Shown piece after piece: positions 56,353-60,659 of a stretch of 64,000 bases of DNA. The notes under the pieces are model-generated. The model was not told the origin of the DNA, made no database searches, and was given only the letters and a program-made list of their open reading frames with translations. The number at the start of each line of letters is the position of its first letter. The stretch's first letter is position 1. The stretch lies in contig JAHEIH010000002.1 in NCBI GenBank assembly GCA_024639455.1, positions 1 through 64,000 of the forward strand, in the 5' to 3' direction. The translations under genes and the position numbers were made by a program. The DNA comes from Cellvibrionales bacterium (GTDB taxonomy: Bacteria; Pseudomonadota; Gammaproteobacteria; Pseudomonadales; JAHEIH01).

Positions 56353-56706
56353 TTATTGGCTTGCAGCGAGTAGTGATTCAAACGCGCCGCCGTTGGTCAC
56401 TGCTGTGTAACCCGCATTCTGTAAGGTGGCCGTGGCTTGACCAGAGCGGTTGCCACTTCGGCAGTACAACACCATTGGGGTGTCTTTAGCCAAACCCAGG
56501 GCTTGTACGCCCTGTAAGATGCCGCTGTGGGTGATGCGAGTAGAGCCGTCGAGATGGCCTTCGCGGTATTCGGCCTCGCTGCGAACATCGATCAGCATGG
56601 CCCCATCGGCGACTTTTTGCAGCGCTGCAATATGGCTATCGTTAACACTGTTGCCGCAACCAAATAAACTCATCATCATAGCACCTACCAAGGCAATTCG
56701 TTTCAT
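56353..56706 (-). CDS. Rhodanese-like lipoprotein
   Basis: This 117-aa protein has a lipoprotein signal (MMMSLFGC) and a single rhodanese domain with the active-site loop YCRSGNRSG, where the Cys can carry sulphur. MLIDVRSEAEYREGHLDGS (key part DVRSEAEYREGH) is the other classic motif. It would act in the periplasm or outer membrane as a sulphurtransferase or a sulphur-relay protein. Start ATG 56704-56706 has GGAG five bases upstream; the frame opens to 56742. It ends directly against the hybrid kinase gene (convergent). No obvious partner, though it is near the cysteine-peptide locus. Confidence 0.85.
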   Translation of the reverse strand: MKRIALVGAMMMSLFGCGNSVNDSHIAALQKVADGAMLIDVRSEAEYREGHLDGSTRITHSGILQGVQALGLAKDTPMVLYCRSGNRSGQATATLQNAGYTAVTNGGAFESLLAASQ

Positions 56707-56788
56707 GGAGTCTCCGTGAGTATTTTTTTGCTGTCCATTCATTGTACACTCAGCCTCATGATTAATCTTTGCTAATGCAGGTCAATTT

Positions 56789-57217
56789 ATGTTTTTTGTG
56801 TCCGCGGCATTGATCGGCATTATCGCTGTCATTCCCGCTATCATGTGGGCGCGCCACCAACGTACAGCCATTCTCGTCAAAGCTGCAGGATGGGGTTTGA
56901 TCGCCGCGGCATCTATCTATGTGATCGCGGCGTTGGGGCGAGCTGATGGTTTGTGGAAAATCATCGAATTGATGGGAGTGGGGGCCTTTGGCTGTTGCTA
57001 TTGGCTAGCCAACAAACGTCCGCTGTGGGCACTGGCTTGGGGCTGGGCACTTCACCCTGTGTGGGATATTTTTCTGCACTACCTCGGCCCCGGTAACTAC
57101 ATCATTCCAGCATGGTATAGCATCGCTTGCGCGGTATTTGACGTGTTTGTCGCGGCGTATTTATTTTGGCGCGACTATCAGCAGCGTCACCCCGTCGATG
57201 TCGTGCGCCTTTGGTAG
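56789..57217 (+). CDS. Small four-helix membrane protein (DUF6010-like)
   Basis: This 142-aa protein has about four or five membrane helices and a conserved central motif WALAWGWALHPVWDIFLHYLGPG (key part WALHPVWDIFLH), where His and Asp may be functional. This resembles the uncharacterised DUF6010 family. Function is unknown. It starts at ATG 56789 and its end overlaps the 3' end of hvfC on the opposite strand by 31 bases. Its position next to the HvfABC locus may be incidental. Confidence 0.55.
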   Translation: MFFVSAALIGIIAVIPAIMWARHQRTAILVKAAGWGLIAAASIYVIAALGRADGLWKIIELMGVGAFGCCYWLANKRPLWALAWGWALHPVWDIFLHYLGPGNYIIPAWYSIACAVFDVFVAAYLFWRDYQQRHPVDVVRLW

Positions 57218-57942
57218 CCTAGTATGATCTGTTCCTGGTGCAGTTGTTCTAAGACATTCACAACATGGGGCCAAAGACTTTTGGCATCAGTATTGGGTAT
57301 ACGCTCACTCAGTGATTGGCAGGCTGCCCCGATTGATGGGTTGAGTTGCAATGCCTGAAGAAGTTGCAATGTCGTGGCATTTAACGCGTTGAAAGCCACC
57401 TCGTGTGAGGCCTTACGGTATACCGCAACACCAAACCACTCCCCACTTGTTGGTGGGATTGCTGCGTCAGGGCTGAATTGGTGTACAGGTCTGGGGTAGA
57501 TGCCAAAGTGAACGGTGGGGTTCACAATAACGTCAATATCGCCTTGTTCAAGATTAGCGAGTGGCTGGCCTTCATGAAAAACTACCTCACCTGTATGTTG
57601 ATAGGCGGCCAATTCTAACCATTCGTAATGCATTAAATCGTGCAACCATTCGGGCACATTGTCGCGCTCTTCTATCCAATCTAGAAAGATCTCTGGAATA
57701 TTTTTAAATAGTGGCGAGTGTAGTTTTCCCTCGGCGAAAAATGCTTTACTCAAGTTATGCCAGTCTTCATCACCGATTAACGCGGATGCAATCGGATAGC
57801 ATTGATCGATGAACCCCGTCAGATTGTTATAAACCAGTCGGCGATATACCTGGAACCGCGATTCGGCTAAACCGAACGGGGCTTCGCTTTGGCTTCGCAG
57901 GGCAGCGGCAATGTCTCGTTGATAATCAGCTAAGTCGGTCAC
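57187..57942 (-). CDS. hvfC: HvfC/BufC-type DUF2063 partner protein
   Basis: This 251-aa protein is the DUF2063-domain partner of the DUF692 oxidase. The N-terminal helical domain holds ESRFQVYRRLVYNNLTGFIDQCYPI (key part RFQVYRRLVYNN) and the C-terminal part ends in a winged-helix-like region. In characterised RiPP systems such partners are needed for modification and probably present the precursor peptide to the oxidase. It starts at GTG 57940-57942, overlapping the hvfB stop (GTGA), so the two are translated together. The name is by homology and locus order. Confidence 0.87.
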   Translation of the reverse strand: MTDLADYQRDIAAALRSQSEAPFGLAESRFQVYRRLVYNNLTGFIDQCYPIASALIGDEDWHNLSKAFFAEGKLHSPLFKNIPEIFLDWIEERDNVPEWLHDLMHYEWLELAAYQHTGEVVFHEGQPLANLEQGDIDVIVNPTVHFGIYPRPVHQFSPDAAIPPTSGEWFGVAVYRKASHEVAFNALNATTLQLLQALQLNPSIGAACQSLSERIPNTDAKSLWPHVVNVLEQLHQEQIILGYQRRTTSTG

Positions 57943-58784
57943 GTTGCCACCCTAGCGGTGACGGGCACGGTCTGATTTTGTAGGCGCTTGATATGTAACA
58001 CCTCAGGGAGTAATTCTGTCAGTGGCGGAATGTTAAAGTCGCGCTCCAATAGAGTAGGGAAGACCCCAAATTGCTGGTAACTAAAGTTGAGCAGTTGCCA
58101 AACATCATCAATCACCTCGGCACCATGGGTATCGATGACGAGATCCTCCGCTTCACGGAAATGCCCGGCGGTGTGCATGTACACAATTCGCTTGGTGGGT
58201 AATGCTTGTAGGTACTGGTAAGGATCGAAACCAAAGTTCACGCTATTGACGAATACATTATTGATATCGAGGTGCAAGTCACAGTCAGCGGCTTCAAGTA
58301 CAGCACAAACAAAGCTCGCTTCATCCATACTGGCGTGGGGTGCAGCCATGTAAAACGAGGTGTTCTCTAGGGCGATCCGTCGACCAAGAATATGTTGCAC
58401 ACGCTTCACACGCTGGGCGACGTGGTCCACCGTCTGCTCGGTAAAGGGCAGCGGTAATAAATCGTACAGGTGACCGTTAGCGCTACACCATGACAAATGT
58501 TCGCTGTAGAGGTCGATGTGGTGTTTGTCTAAAAAGCGTGCGATATCTTCAACGAAGTCTTCATCGAGCGGATCGCTACTGCCAATAGAAAGAGACAAAC
58601 CGTGGGCGACAAAGGGGCGTTGCTCAAGCAGTGTATTTAACTGTTGGCGTTTACGCCCGCCGTGAGACATCCAATTTTCAGGGGCAATTTCAAAAAAATT
58701 GATGACGTCGGGGACGCCATCGTCAAAGAGGGTGGAGAGGTGCTCCTGGCGAAGCCCCAAGCCAGCGCCCGAAGGGTAGGCCAT
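57939..58784 (-). CDS. hvfB: DUF692 (MNIO) family multinuclear iron oxidase, HvfB/BufB-like
   Basis: This 281-aa protein belongs to the DUF692/UPF0276 family, a TIM barrel holding two or three iron atoms, related to MbnB of methanobactin synthesis. Candidate metal ligands are seen in order: EIAPENWM, VAHGLSLSIGS, YSEHLSW, ENTSFYM, DLHLDINN and YMHTAGH, plus DTHGAEV; none is missing. Such enzymes oxidise cysteine residues of a peptide into oxazolone/thioamide or thiooxazole-type groups that bind copper. It lies 3 bases after the precursor gene and overlaps hvfC, giving a tight operon. The exact product here is inferred. Confidence 0.9.
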   Translation of the reverse strand: MAYPSGAGLGLRQEHLSTLFDDGVPDVINFFEIAPENWMSHGGRKRQQLNTLLEQRPFVAHGLSLSIGSSDPLDEDFVEDIARFLDKHHIDLYSEHLSWCSANGHLYDLLPLPFTEQTVDHVAQRVKRVQHILGRRIALENTSFYMAAPHASMDEASFVCAVLEAADCDLHLDINNVFVNSVNFGFDPYQYLQALPTKRIVYMHTAGHFREAEDLVIDTHGAEVIDDVWQLLNFSYQQFGVFPTLLERDFNIPPLTELLPEVLHIKRLQNQTVPVTARVAT

Positions 58785-58787
58785 GGC

Positions 58788-59144
58788 TTAGCCCATACCC
58801 CCGCACTTGCCTTCACCACATTTACCGTCTTTGGCTTTTTTGGTGTCTTTAGCGCCGCACTTTCCATCATCGGCTTTCATTGAACCGCCGCATGAGCCGT
58901 CATGCGCTTTGTCGTGGCCGTTGTGGTTGCCGTGGTCGTGGCTTTTATCTTTGCCGCCACACTTACCTTCGCCACATTTGCCGTCTTTGGCTTTTGATTT
59001 GTCTTTGTCGCCGTGGTGCATGGCGACTTGATAGCCTTGCTCCATACTGGCGGCACTAAAGGGACTGCTATCGGCATTAACTTGCATGGCGGTACTGCTC
59101 ATGGCGGCAGCGATGGCGATACTAAGCGTCATTGATTTTTTCAT
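58788..59144 (-). CDS. hvfA: Cysteine-rich RiPP precursor with EGKCG motifs, HvfA-like
   Basis: This peptide of about 118 aa has a Sec-type signal (key part SMTLSIAIAAAMSSTAM). A Lys/Asp/Gly/His-rich body follows with six cysteines in xGKCG or DGSCG contexts. The 13-residue unit AKDGKCGEGKCGG occurs twice (58953-58991 and 58797-58835). A HDHGNHNGHDKAHDG stretch between them may bind metal. This is the HvfA pattern, where the EGKCG cysteines are substrates of the DUF692 enzyme encoded next. It starts at ATG 59142-59144 (GGAG seven bases upstream); an ATG six bases earlier overlaps the anti-sigma stop and is possible. Confidence 0.88.
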   Translation of the reverse strand: MKKSMTLSIAIAAAMSSTAMQVNADSSPFSAASMEQGYQVAMHHGDKDKSKAKDGKCGEGKCGGKDKSHDHGNHNGHDKAHDGSCGGSMKADDGKCGAKDTKKAKDGKCGEGKCGGMG

Positions 59145-59146
59145 TG

Positions 59147-59404
59147 TCATTCTCCGTGGTTGGATGTTGGTTTTTGCAGTTGCTCAGTAATTCTTTGCTT
59201 AGCTTCTTTTGAAAGACCCGGGGCCTTCTCATCATCCACTAAGCGGCGGCTGGCCTGACGTATATCCCTTACTTGGTCGACAAAGTGTCGACAGGTTTGG
59301 CACATCATCAAGTGGAATGTGATGTTGATGCGCCGCCATGTGCTCGCTTGTTGCAATTCTCCGCTAGCCACGATGGCGCTGACGTCTTTACAAGACAACA
59401 TCAT
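59147..59404 (-). CDS. Zinc-binding anti-sigma factor (ZAS type)
   Basis: This 85-aa protein carries HLMMCQTC, the His-x3-Cys-x2-Cys zinc motif of ZAS anti-sigma factors, with an upstream Cys in MLSCKDVSAIV. It would hold the partner sigma factor until a metal or thiol stress releases it. Start ATG 59402-59404 overlaps the sigma factor's stop (TAATG) and has GAGGAG upstream, so the two are translationally coupled. The TGA overlaps the possible first ATG of the precursor gene. No membrane helix is seen, so it is soluble, like ChrR's N-terminal part. Confidence 0.83.
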   Translation of the reverse strand: MMLSCKDVSAIVASGELQQASTWRRINITFHLMMCQTCRHFVDQVRDIRQASRRLVDDEKAPGLSKEAKQRITEQLQKPTSNHGE

Positions 59405-59952
59405 TAACTCCTCGACCAGTGTTTCTGGATGCAAGCCCGCAGTTGTAACATACTGCGTTGGCGTAACTTCCATAGGTTTGTCGTGCTAATTGACAAATCC
59501 TGACAAATTTTTTCACTTTCTTCTGCCAATACTTCACTGGCGATAAAAACTTGGCGCATTTTCCATGGCAATTTTTCCAAGCAAGTCTCTAAAACGGCGC
59601 TAAATTGTCGCTGCTGCAAATCTCCCTCTGGGCTAGCCATGGCCGCTATTGACTGCTGCCAATGACCGCTATTATCAAAAAAGGCAGCTAATTCATCGTC
59701 GTCTTCGGGCAGCGAAGCGAATTTACCTTGGCGACGAAAGTGATCGAACAACTTGTGTTTTAAAATGCCAATTAACCAACTGCGCATTTGACTGGTTTGC
59801 TTGAAACGTCCATATGCTTCCATGCCAGCGAGTAAAGTTTCTTGCACCAGTTCTGCAGCTTGCTCTTTATCACGGCACTGCAAAAGTGCATAGCGGTAAA
59901 GCGCGTCGCCGTGTTGTTCCAGCCAGTCGATGGCAAAGTGAGGGTCTTGCAT
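59404..59952 (-). CDS. ECF-family RNA polymerase sigma factor
   Basis: This 182-aa sigma factor has region 2 (about 10-85, YRYALLQCRDKEQAAELVQETLLAGMEAYGRF; key part AAELVQETLLAG) and region 4 (about 120-178, LPWKMRQVFIASEVLAEESEKICQDL). ECF factors respond to envelope or metal stress through a paired anti-sigma, which follows here. It likely drives the hvfABC genes and itself, and perhaps the divergent DoxX gene. The start ATG 59950-59952 is supported by the usual MQDPHFAIDWLEQHGDALYRYA opening; the longer frame to 60132 is not coding. I found no confident autoregulated promoter. Confidence 0.9.
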   Translation of the reverse strand: MQDPHFAIDWLEQHGDALYRYALLQCRDKEQAAELVQETLLAGMEAYGRFKQTSQMRSWLIGILKHKLFDHFRRQGKFASLPEDDDELAAFFDNSGHWQQSIAAMASPEGDLQQRQFSAVLETCLEKLPWKMRQVFIASEVLAEESEKICQDLSISTTNLWKLRQRSMLQLRACIQKHWSRS

Positions 59953-60038
59953 GAGTGATCCAACTTTATTTTTTTCAGTATAGTAGAAAATTGTCAGGCT
60001 TCTGTACTTTCTCCGACCCATCGAAAAGGAGGAAGACC

Positions 60039-60659
60039 ATGCATACATTGATAAAGTTAGCGCGCTTTTTAGACAGTTTGAGTCAACAGCAATGGCTCGC
60101 GAGTTTGGCGTTACGCGCCTATCTAGCCCCAATATTTTGGATGGCTGGGACGCGCAAATTAGCGGATATGGAAAGCACTATTGCCTGGTTCGGCAATCCT
60201 GAATGGGGGCTAGGGCTACCCTTCCCAACGCTTATGGCTTGGTTGGCGGCCGGGACCGAAACACTGGGCGCGGTGCTGTTAATAATAGGTTTGGCGGTGC
60301 GTTTTATAGCGATTCCTTTGATGGTGACCATGTTGGTCGCTACTTGGACGGTTCACTGGGAAAACGGCTGGCTCGCCATTGCAGAGGGGCAGGGCAGTTG
60401 GTTTGCAAACGAACGCACGCTTGAAGCGGTCCAAAGACTCGATCGCGCCAAGGATATTTTACGTGAATATGGCCATTTCGATGGGTTAACCGAGCATGGC
60501 AATTTTGTGGTGCTCAATAACGGTGTCGAGTTTGCTGTTACGTATTTCATTATGTTGTTGGCGTTATTTTTTCTTGGTGCTGGGCGTTTCAGTAGCCTAG
60601 ATCATGGCTTGAACGTCTATGTCACTCGGTACTCACAGCGGTCCAGTGGCGTGAATTAG
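60039..60659 (+). CDS. DoxX-family membrane protein (HvfX-like)
   Basis: This 206-aa inner-membrane protein has about four helices and the DoxX signatures: YLAPIFWMAGTRKL near the start, LPFPTLMAWLAAGTETLGAVLLIIGL (key part AAGTETLGAVLL), and a long loop with acidic residues before the last helix. DoxX proteins are commonly found with DUF692 operons and may link to the quinone pool or thiol redox. It starts at ATG 60039 after AAAGGAGGAAGACC and is divergent from the sigma factor by only 86 bases, so a shared control region is likely. The role in this pathway is inferred from location. Confidence 0.82.
   Translation: MHTLIKLARFLDSLSQQQWLASLALRAYLAPIFWMAGTRKLADMESTIAWFGNPEWGLGLPFPTLMAWLAAGTETLGAVLLIIGLAVRFIAIPLMVTMLVATWTVHWENGWLAIAEGQGSWFANERTLEAVQRLDRAKDILREYGHFDGLTEHGNFVVLNNGVEFAVTYFIMLLALFFLGAGRFSSLDHGLNVYVTRYSQRSSGVN

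Follow-up and report, generated by a model that had tools for sequence, protein, structure and literature searches.

The window analysed here, a 64,000-nucleotide stretch of a Cellvibrionales bacterium (assembly GCA_024639455.1, contig JAHEIH010000002.1, positions 1 to 64,000), appears to contain a captophorin-type HvfABCX locus controlled by its own extracytoplasmic function (ECF) sigma factor and zinc-binding anti-sigma (ZAS) factor, with a promoter for the anti-sigma gene and hvfABC lying inside the sigma gene itself. The probability of this reading is put at roughly 0.78. Six genes at 57187-60659 make up the locus: the ECF sigma factor, the ZAS anti-sigma factor, an EGKCG-type precursor of a ribosomally synthesized and post-translationally modified peptide (RiPP), the multinuclear non-heme iron-dependent oxidative enzyme (MNIO) HvfB, its partner HvfC, and HvfX/DoxX. 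Five of them are closely packed on the minus strand, and doxX departs on the plus strand from an 86-base gap (59953-60038). The conserved intragenic promoter, not the gene set, is the most unusual feature of the locus.

The sigE promoters of Neisseria follow the consensus GTMAGBWTT (-35), 12-13 nt, CGTCTAAH (-10) (PMC2893595). In a scan of the window, the top match to this consensus (15/17) is the site at 59504-59476 on the minus strand, formed by GTCAGGATT and CGACAAAC. It falls within sigma codons C150-N159, in region 4.2, and is directed at the anti-sigma gene and hvfABC. At the sequence level it resembles PrshA of Corynebacterium glutamicum, being a cognate-type promoter inside a sigma coding region and directed at the anti-sigma gene.

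The site recurs at the same place in related genes. In 63 of 111 non-redundant sigma genes the core GTMAG-N16/17-CGWC stands at one and the same codon column, and only two matches lie elsewhere in those genes; when each gene was recoded synonymously with its own codons, 7.0 such sites were expected (standard deviation 2.3). The 111 genes were kept from 122 that reach region 4.2 (mutual nucleotide identity below 85%), and copies of the window's locus (L001, L002, L109, L168 and L169) were excluded from the counts. A first alignment had the core at the same codons in 27 of 66 homologues. Among sigma genes fetched later, 29 of 43 carry the site against 3.55 expected by recoding, with no off-site core match in 46 non-redundant genes. 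This later set began as 52 loci outside the first set, reduced to 46 and then to 43 after three near earlier genes were dropped; 12 loci came from a separate retrieval and 40 from a homologue list whose other rows were already in use, and the set is not an independent random draw. The sigma homologues sampled are part of the homologue matches, 30 loci and 40 further regions having been taken from that list, with loci L170-L174 and L242-L254 outside those analysed. The 63 genes with the site (hit genes) spread over 31 family labels, some of which may coincide.

Codon choice within the site is narrow where the promoter letters lie. In genes with Cys followed by Lys or Gln, the Cys codon is TGT in 66 of 71, whereas TGT is used by 17 of the 39 other genes that have Cys at this place; Lys is encoded by AAG (54/56) and Gln by CAG (15/15). 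Codon 8 reads NCG in 65 of the 66 genes with the C[KQ]..xT pattern. Its residue varies among the 63 hit genes (TCG 22, CCG 17, ACG 13, GCG 11) while CG is constant. Four later-fetched hits (L271, L275, L287 and L299) have Ser for Thr, which changes CGAC to CGTC and retains the -10, and seven of the 48 non-hits (L141, L142, L148, L156, L162, L200 and L231) keep the -10 with GTAAT or GTAAC. The changes tolerated in region 4.2 thus appear to be ones that keep the promoter: Lys/Gln exchange preserves GTMAG, Thr/Ser exchange preserves CGWC, and Ala, Ser, Thr and Pro are all written as NCG. These patterns argue, with good probability, for dual selection in a large ECF/ZAS family with named Pseudomonadota among its members, the same letters of region 4.2 serving as protein code and as target promoter for the inhibitor and, in captophorin loci, also driving the peptide operon.

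The genes behind the site point to what it may do. An anti-sigma frame, found by motif, follows 62 of the 63 hit genes, and 60 of the 62 measured distances from site to anti-sigma start are 41-116 nt. HvfB also lies downstream within the sampled stretch of 20 hit genes and 8 non-hit genes; an upstream promoter scoring at least 12 is present in six of the latter. Over the 111 genes, 62 have the internal site only, 8 an upstream site only, one has both and 40 have neither. Because family f78, with 17 hit genes, shows no HvfB within the sampled stretch, the conserved task of the internal site is probably anti-sigma feedback, to which the peptide operon was added in loci like the window's. Family f26 (L017, L022, L023, L025, L026 and L028) is wired the other way round: its sigma-ZAS-HvfB genes have an ECF promoter upstream and lack the internal site.

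The anti-sigma gene of the window has two possible in-frame ATG starts after GAGGAG, 59404 (overlapping the sigma stop) and 59401. Started at 59401, the 84-residue product contains Cys4, His30, Cys34 and Cys37 in the arrangement Cys-x25-His-x3-Cys-x2-Cys, at the same positions as in meningococcal NMB2145 (PMC2893595). MLSC also opens the anti-sigma open reading frames (ORFs) of relatives L031, L033, L049 and L072. A start at 59473 is disfavoured by the Cys4/His30 numbering, the ribosome site, the relatives and the position of the internal promoter, all of which favour 59401/59404. The identity of the protein rests on the motif because Pfam gives no match and NF052368 scores 45.9 bits, below its cut-off of 50.

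The remaining genes (Table 1) bear out the first-pass annotation in its description of an HvfABC-type RiPP locus with an ECF sigma/ZAS switch, a divergent doxX leaving the 86-base gap and six precursor cysteines. HvfB, HvfC and HvfX pass their NCBIfam cut-offs, the last thereby falling in the HvfX family, and HvfC also has PF09836 and PF22106 above cut-off. The sigma factor is recognized by Pfam; TIGR02943, the best among the listed sigma models, gives 158.0 bits, under its cut-off of 162.2. Three features of the captophorin/HvfABC group are present, namely an HvfB-type MNIO, a PME1 partner (DUF2063 plus RiPP recognition element, RRE) and a precursor with Lys-Cys 5-mer repeats. 3BWW is the best solved relative of the MNIO by sequence, and 3DEE the only one found for HvfC. 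The ligand residues N175, D242 and H244 of HvfB (PMC13419390) correspond to N175, D218 and H220 in the window's MNIO, in columns at least 97% conserved over 118 rows. A rhodanese-domain protein (Pfam), with an N-terminus that looks lipoprotein-like by eye, adjoins the locus at 56353-56742 on the minus strand.

Table 1. Genes and predicted promoters of the HvfABCX locus in the window
Feature	Position	Strand	Details	Basis
HvfC-type partner	57187-57942	-	DUF2063, RRE	NF050145, 196.2 bits (cut-off 142)
HvfB-type MNIO	57939-58784	-	DUF692; predicted 5-thiooxazole maturase	NF003818, 402.9 bits (cut-off 360); PF05114, 348 bits
HvfA-like RiPP precursor	58788-59150	-	six Cys; ATG 59150 or 59144	NF050137
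ZAS anti-sigma factor	59147-59401	-	84 aa; alternative start 59404	motif; start from sequence and relatives
ECF sigma factor	59404-59952	-	182 aa; ATG 59952	Pfam Sigma70_r2, 45.6 bits, and r4_2, 27.9 bits, both above cut-off
Predicted intragenic ECF promoter	59476-59504	-	-35 GTCAGGATT 59504-59496, 12 nt, -10 CGACAAAC 59483-59476	motif match
Predicted ECF promoter of doxX	59993-60021	+	-35 GTCAGGCTT 59993-60001, 12 nt, -10 CGACCCAT 60014-60021, 17 nt before ATG	
HvfX/DoxX membrane protein	60039-60659	+		NF050144, 226.5 bits (cut-off 80)

The precursor has its cysteines at residues 59, 64, 87, 98, 111 and 116, each followed by Gly, in two KCGEGKCG doublets and the single contexts DGSCGG and DGKCGA. 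An N-terminal signal peptide was judged by eye. With 40.7 bits it passes the KCGExKCG_twice model NF050137 (cut-off 19.5); it is not filed as an oxazolin HvfA because it reaches 46.5 of the 95 bits required by the equivalog NF050188. A DUF2282 bufferin was considered and rejected, as the precursor has no Pfam match. Residues 30-40 (59063-59031), PFSAASMEQGY, form a Met-for-Leu variant of a PF-x3-7-L-x2-G-[YF] block present in 52 of 77 precursor-like ORFs of related loci, possibly a recognition or export element. In Sulfuriferula (L031:5200-5973), a single HvfB is preceded by two precursors in tandem, the first kind having KCGEGKCG and the other DAKCAADKK repeats.

Known members of the class indicate what may become of these cysteines. 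The H. influenzae oxazolin carries six 5-thiooxazoles (PMC13419390), and FonBC strongly prefers a small residue after Cys, fully modifies a DGKCG variant and takes 8 Da from a substrate with two repeats (PMC13097082). Because Gly follows every Cys of the window's precursor, modification of most or all six by its HvfBC is likely by analogy. The first-pass annotation had cited heterocycles or thioamides from characterised relatives and taken the product to be undescribed; the literature has reassigned the class chemistry from oxazolone/thioamide to 5-thiooxazole (PMC13419390, PMC13097082), and the peptide class is described, so that the product would be a new member of it. EGKCG clusters are reported to contain mostly precursor, MNIO, DUF2063 and DoxX genes in varied combinations, and sigma/NrsF genes to occur in Buf1 clusters (PMC12452194). 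Judged by its predicted proteins, the window's locus is a further member of the oxazolin/captophorin class, and the gene set itself is not new.

Captophorins bind copper (PMC13097082), and the core sequences KCGEGKCG and DGKCG in the window fit known substrates, which makes it unlikely that the same enzymes here make a peptide for another metal or for an oxidant role, such as a product for hypochlorite or disulfide stress. Such a role would suit the ZAS-type switch, the RpoE2 dependence of the H. influenzae doxX/hvf genes under hypochlorite (PMC7907618) and a precursor that falls below the HvfA equivalog cut-off.

The plus-strand promoter is the other part of the regulatory proposal. The first-pass annotation had proposed looking in the gap for a shared ECF promoter, and one is found there, facing doxX and common to some related loci; it had overlooked where the anti-sigma gene probably starts and the further copy that lies within the sigma gene. 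The gap copy, formed by GTCAGGCTT and CGACCCAT, scores 13/17 against the Neisseria consensus, a value equalled at many places in the window. Full-size doxX was found in five hit loci (the window, L031, L175, L210 and L218), four of which have the core before it. The pattern GTCAGG-N15-CGAC occurs seven times in the 2.88-Mb genome (three in the reversed control), twice at this locus. Upstream of the precursor, scores of at least 12/13 were found in 5 of 13 loci with a linked sigma gene and 3 of 77 without; upstream of doxX, the figures are 4 of 11 and 0 of 33, the window's doxX site scoring 11. Rows with less than 120 nt upstream or with near-identical upstream DNA were dropped from this comparison. 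Acinetobacter supplies every one of the four doxX hits and three of the five for the precursor, which are therefore not independent; the divergent doxX-precursor gap of that genus has one promoter in each direction. A promoter within 250 nt upstream of hvfA was looked for in the window and rejected (the best score was 9, and 0.95 of shuffles did as well).

The simplest competing account of the internal site is a plain captophorin operon, in which a single upstream promoter reads sigma, anti-sigma and hvfABC and the motif is an accident of the conserved protein sequence C-K/Q-x-L-x-I-x-x-T-N. Few codon choices suffice for the motif: synonymous recoding of the window's gene yields the core in 46 of 1000 cases, so that in this gene alone it could be chance (about 0.05), and the case for the internal promoter therefore rests on the family. 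In addition, the eight related genes with only an upstream ECF promoter show that such an arrangement occurs. The excess over recoding on identical amino acids, in the 111 genes and again in those fetched later, and the survival of GTMAG through Lys/Gln and of CGWC through Thr/Ser exchange nevertheless leave this account with little chance of being right. That the conserved codons are some other RNA or DNA element, for instance one for translation coupling or RNA stability of the anti-sigma message, would agree with their closeness to the anti-sigma start, but is highly improbable given that two blocks 12-13 nt apart match extragenic family promoters in letters, spacing and direction (doxX/precursor promoters of Acinetobacter L083, L086, L092 and L093, and the doxX promoter of Sulfuriferula L031).

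Several further observations weigh against an internal promoter, or against the wider circuit proposed around it. The evidence for it is drawn from sequence throughout. The site is missing from 48 of the 111 genes, among them the genes retained from Acinetobacter and from the order of the window's organism (L003-L028), and a core scan found none inside the sigma homologues of N. gonorrhoeae, Moraxella, B. glumae (L240) and Klebsiella (L241). A codon-constraint profile was discarded as proof, being circular for genes chosen for the motif. The search for a sigma-70 promoter of the sigma gene returned nothing convincing (three matches in the region, 3.8 expected, none above shuffles). Taken alone, the doxX site is modest (0.03 of shuffles as good), and the divergent doxX of L175 lacks the exact core, having GTCAGG-N15-GGAC by eye. 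In meningococci, sigE expression is reported as unaltered under the oxidative stimuli described (PMC2893595).

Genome-wide counts weigh in the same direction where a larger regulon is concerned. The 218 kb around the hit genes contain 19 core matches outside the site and 15 matches of the reversed pattern, which is no clear enrichment. A large regulon in the organism's own genome was rejected: the stricter pattern has five places there and its reversed control seven, and three of the five lie outside the locus, one antisense inside a coding frame (L237) and two without a clear gene start behind them in the ORF lists (L233 and L236). In whole-genome scans of 16 organisms chosen for having sigma homologues, the pattern GTMAG-N16-CGACYAAT has 13 places, seven of which are by position the intragenic site, against nine in the reversed control, which argues against a large regulon. 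Core promoters of the same type do stand before genes that by eye resemble VTT-type membrane and DUF3179-like proteins, beside the sigma/ZAS pairs of L179, L188 and L193, which suggests that these genes may be further regulon members.

What the sequences show is which genes are present, that the motif matches, that it keeps its place across the family and that it exceeds the recoding expectation. The preferred reading, an HvfABCX locus with a promoter inside its sigma gene, can be put as a mechanism in which promoter activity, signal, chemistry and copper binding are inferred. At rest, the sigma factor would be held by the zinc anti-sigma factor (Cys4/His30/Cys34/Cys37), and thiol oxidation or metal displacement would release it. 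Free sigma factor with RNA polymerase would then fire two promoters of the type GTCAGG-N15-CGAC, the one in the gap driving doxX and the one in the region 4.2 codons driving anti-sigma-hvfA-hvfB-hvfC. A single event would thus yield peptide, modifying enzymes and inhibitor and, via the internal site, no additional sigma factor, giving a self-limiting pulse. HvfB and HvfC would turn the HvfA cysteines into 5-thiooxazoles ahead of Sec export, and the exported product would bind Cu(I) in the periplasm.

Parts of this arrangement have counterparts elsewhere. The described captophorins (oxazolin HvfABCX of H. influenzae, fontiphorin FonABC and gonophorin NgoABC; PMC13097082, PMC13419390) share with the window the MNIO, the DUF2063 partner and a secreted-type EGKCG precursor. 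Six cysteines and a DoxX partner are common to oxazolin and the window, whereas the two KCGEGKCG doublets with DGSCGG and DGKCGA singles, the missed HvfA equivalog cut-off, the linked sigma/ZAS pair and the divergent doxX set the window's locus apart from the captophorins. The Neisseria sigE operon (NMB2140-2145/NGO1948-1943, L238; PMC2893595) has doxX, precursor, MNIO, DUF2063, ECF sigma and ZAS genes in common with it, and the ZAS Cys/His positions are identical and the promoter type is the same; unlike in the window, doxX comes first and sigma and ZAS last. The sigma gene of the N. gonorrhoeae locus L238 is free of core matches, and the locus has a single one, where the doxX frame begins. 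Two core matches, both of the GTAAT variant, occur in the 11-kb Moraxella plasmid L239, in its divergent doxX-precursor gap; this plasmid carries doxX, precursor, DUF692, DUF2063, sigma and anti-sigma genes, with an IS4 transposase between DUF692 and DUF2063. A 2.17-Mb Neisseria gonorrhoeae record, NZ_CP119140.1, is filed as a plasmid, and its size suggests a chromosome.

In H. influenzae, the ECF/ZAS pair RpoE2-HrsE also controls doxX-hvf genes, but the sigma gene is unlinked to hvf and acts from another locus near msrAB (PMC7907618). Coupling of a ZAS-controlled sigma factor to such genes is thus already known from Neisseria (PMC2893595) and Haemophilus (PMC7907618). A precedent for the internal site is C. 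glutamicum sigH-rshA. Its ZAS anti-sigma gene is read from a SigH-dependent promoter whose suggested position is inside the sigH coding region, a reported difference from S. coelicolor and M. tuberculosis (PMC3489674); PMC3498285 has little bearing on the matter. That promoter has another sequence and belongs to a distant bacterium, whereas the family of the window shows synonymous-level conservation over many families and, in the window's locus, predicted read-through into a RiPP operon. Comparable ECF-linked MNIO peptide operons that act in metal stress are those of the Caulobacter SigF/NrsF and Cupriavidus gig/RpoQ systems, but they have DUF2282 precursors and, in Caulobacter, the membrane protein NrsF instead of a ZAS protein. 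Among the open-access literature matches listed, neither a conserved intragenic promoter in proteobacterial ECF genes nor one before a captophorin operon was found.

Among 95 genomes searched, 57 have an HvfB match with an E value of 1e-50 or better, that of the window's organism included; the sole congener genome (75% complete) has no HvfB and no sigma match. Chance does not account for the gene association: neighbourhoods of the HvfABC kind recur, and 10 of 80 named HvfB loci (L031, L033, L049, L070, L072, L081, L083, L086, L092 and L093) have a sigma homologue within the sampled stretch. The closest layout seen is that of L175, with divergent doxX followed by sigma, ZAS, precursor and HvfB. 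Sigma homologues in the organism's own order are distant (best 37% identity, 194 genomes sampled), and the best seen anywhere is 50% identical (G1058). A quick tree places the window's sigma factor in a set of eight rows, itself included, with a Shimodaira-Hasegawa-like approximate likelihood ratio test (SH-aLRT) value of 96; the others come from other orders, and six of the eight have the internal site. Its placement is unsure because its branch is long (1.2).

The peptide locus enlarges a newly named RiPP class by one member and provides a natural connection of its copper peptides to a thiol-type switch. Of greater consequence is the hidden promoter, by whose example many ECF sigma genes may also serve as regulatory DNA for themselves. 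Such a promoter would explain how an inhibitor can be made in excess of the sigma factor from a joint operon, and would constrain the region 4.2 mutations that evolution allows. Recoding or codon-optimising these sigma genes would then silently abolish the feedback.

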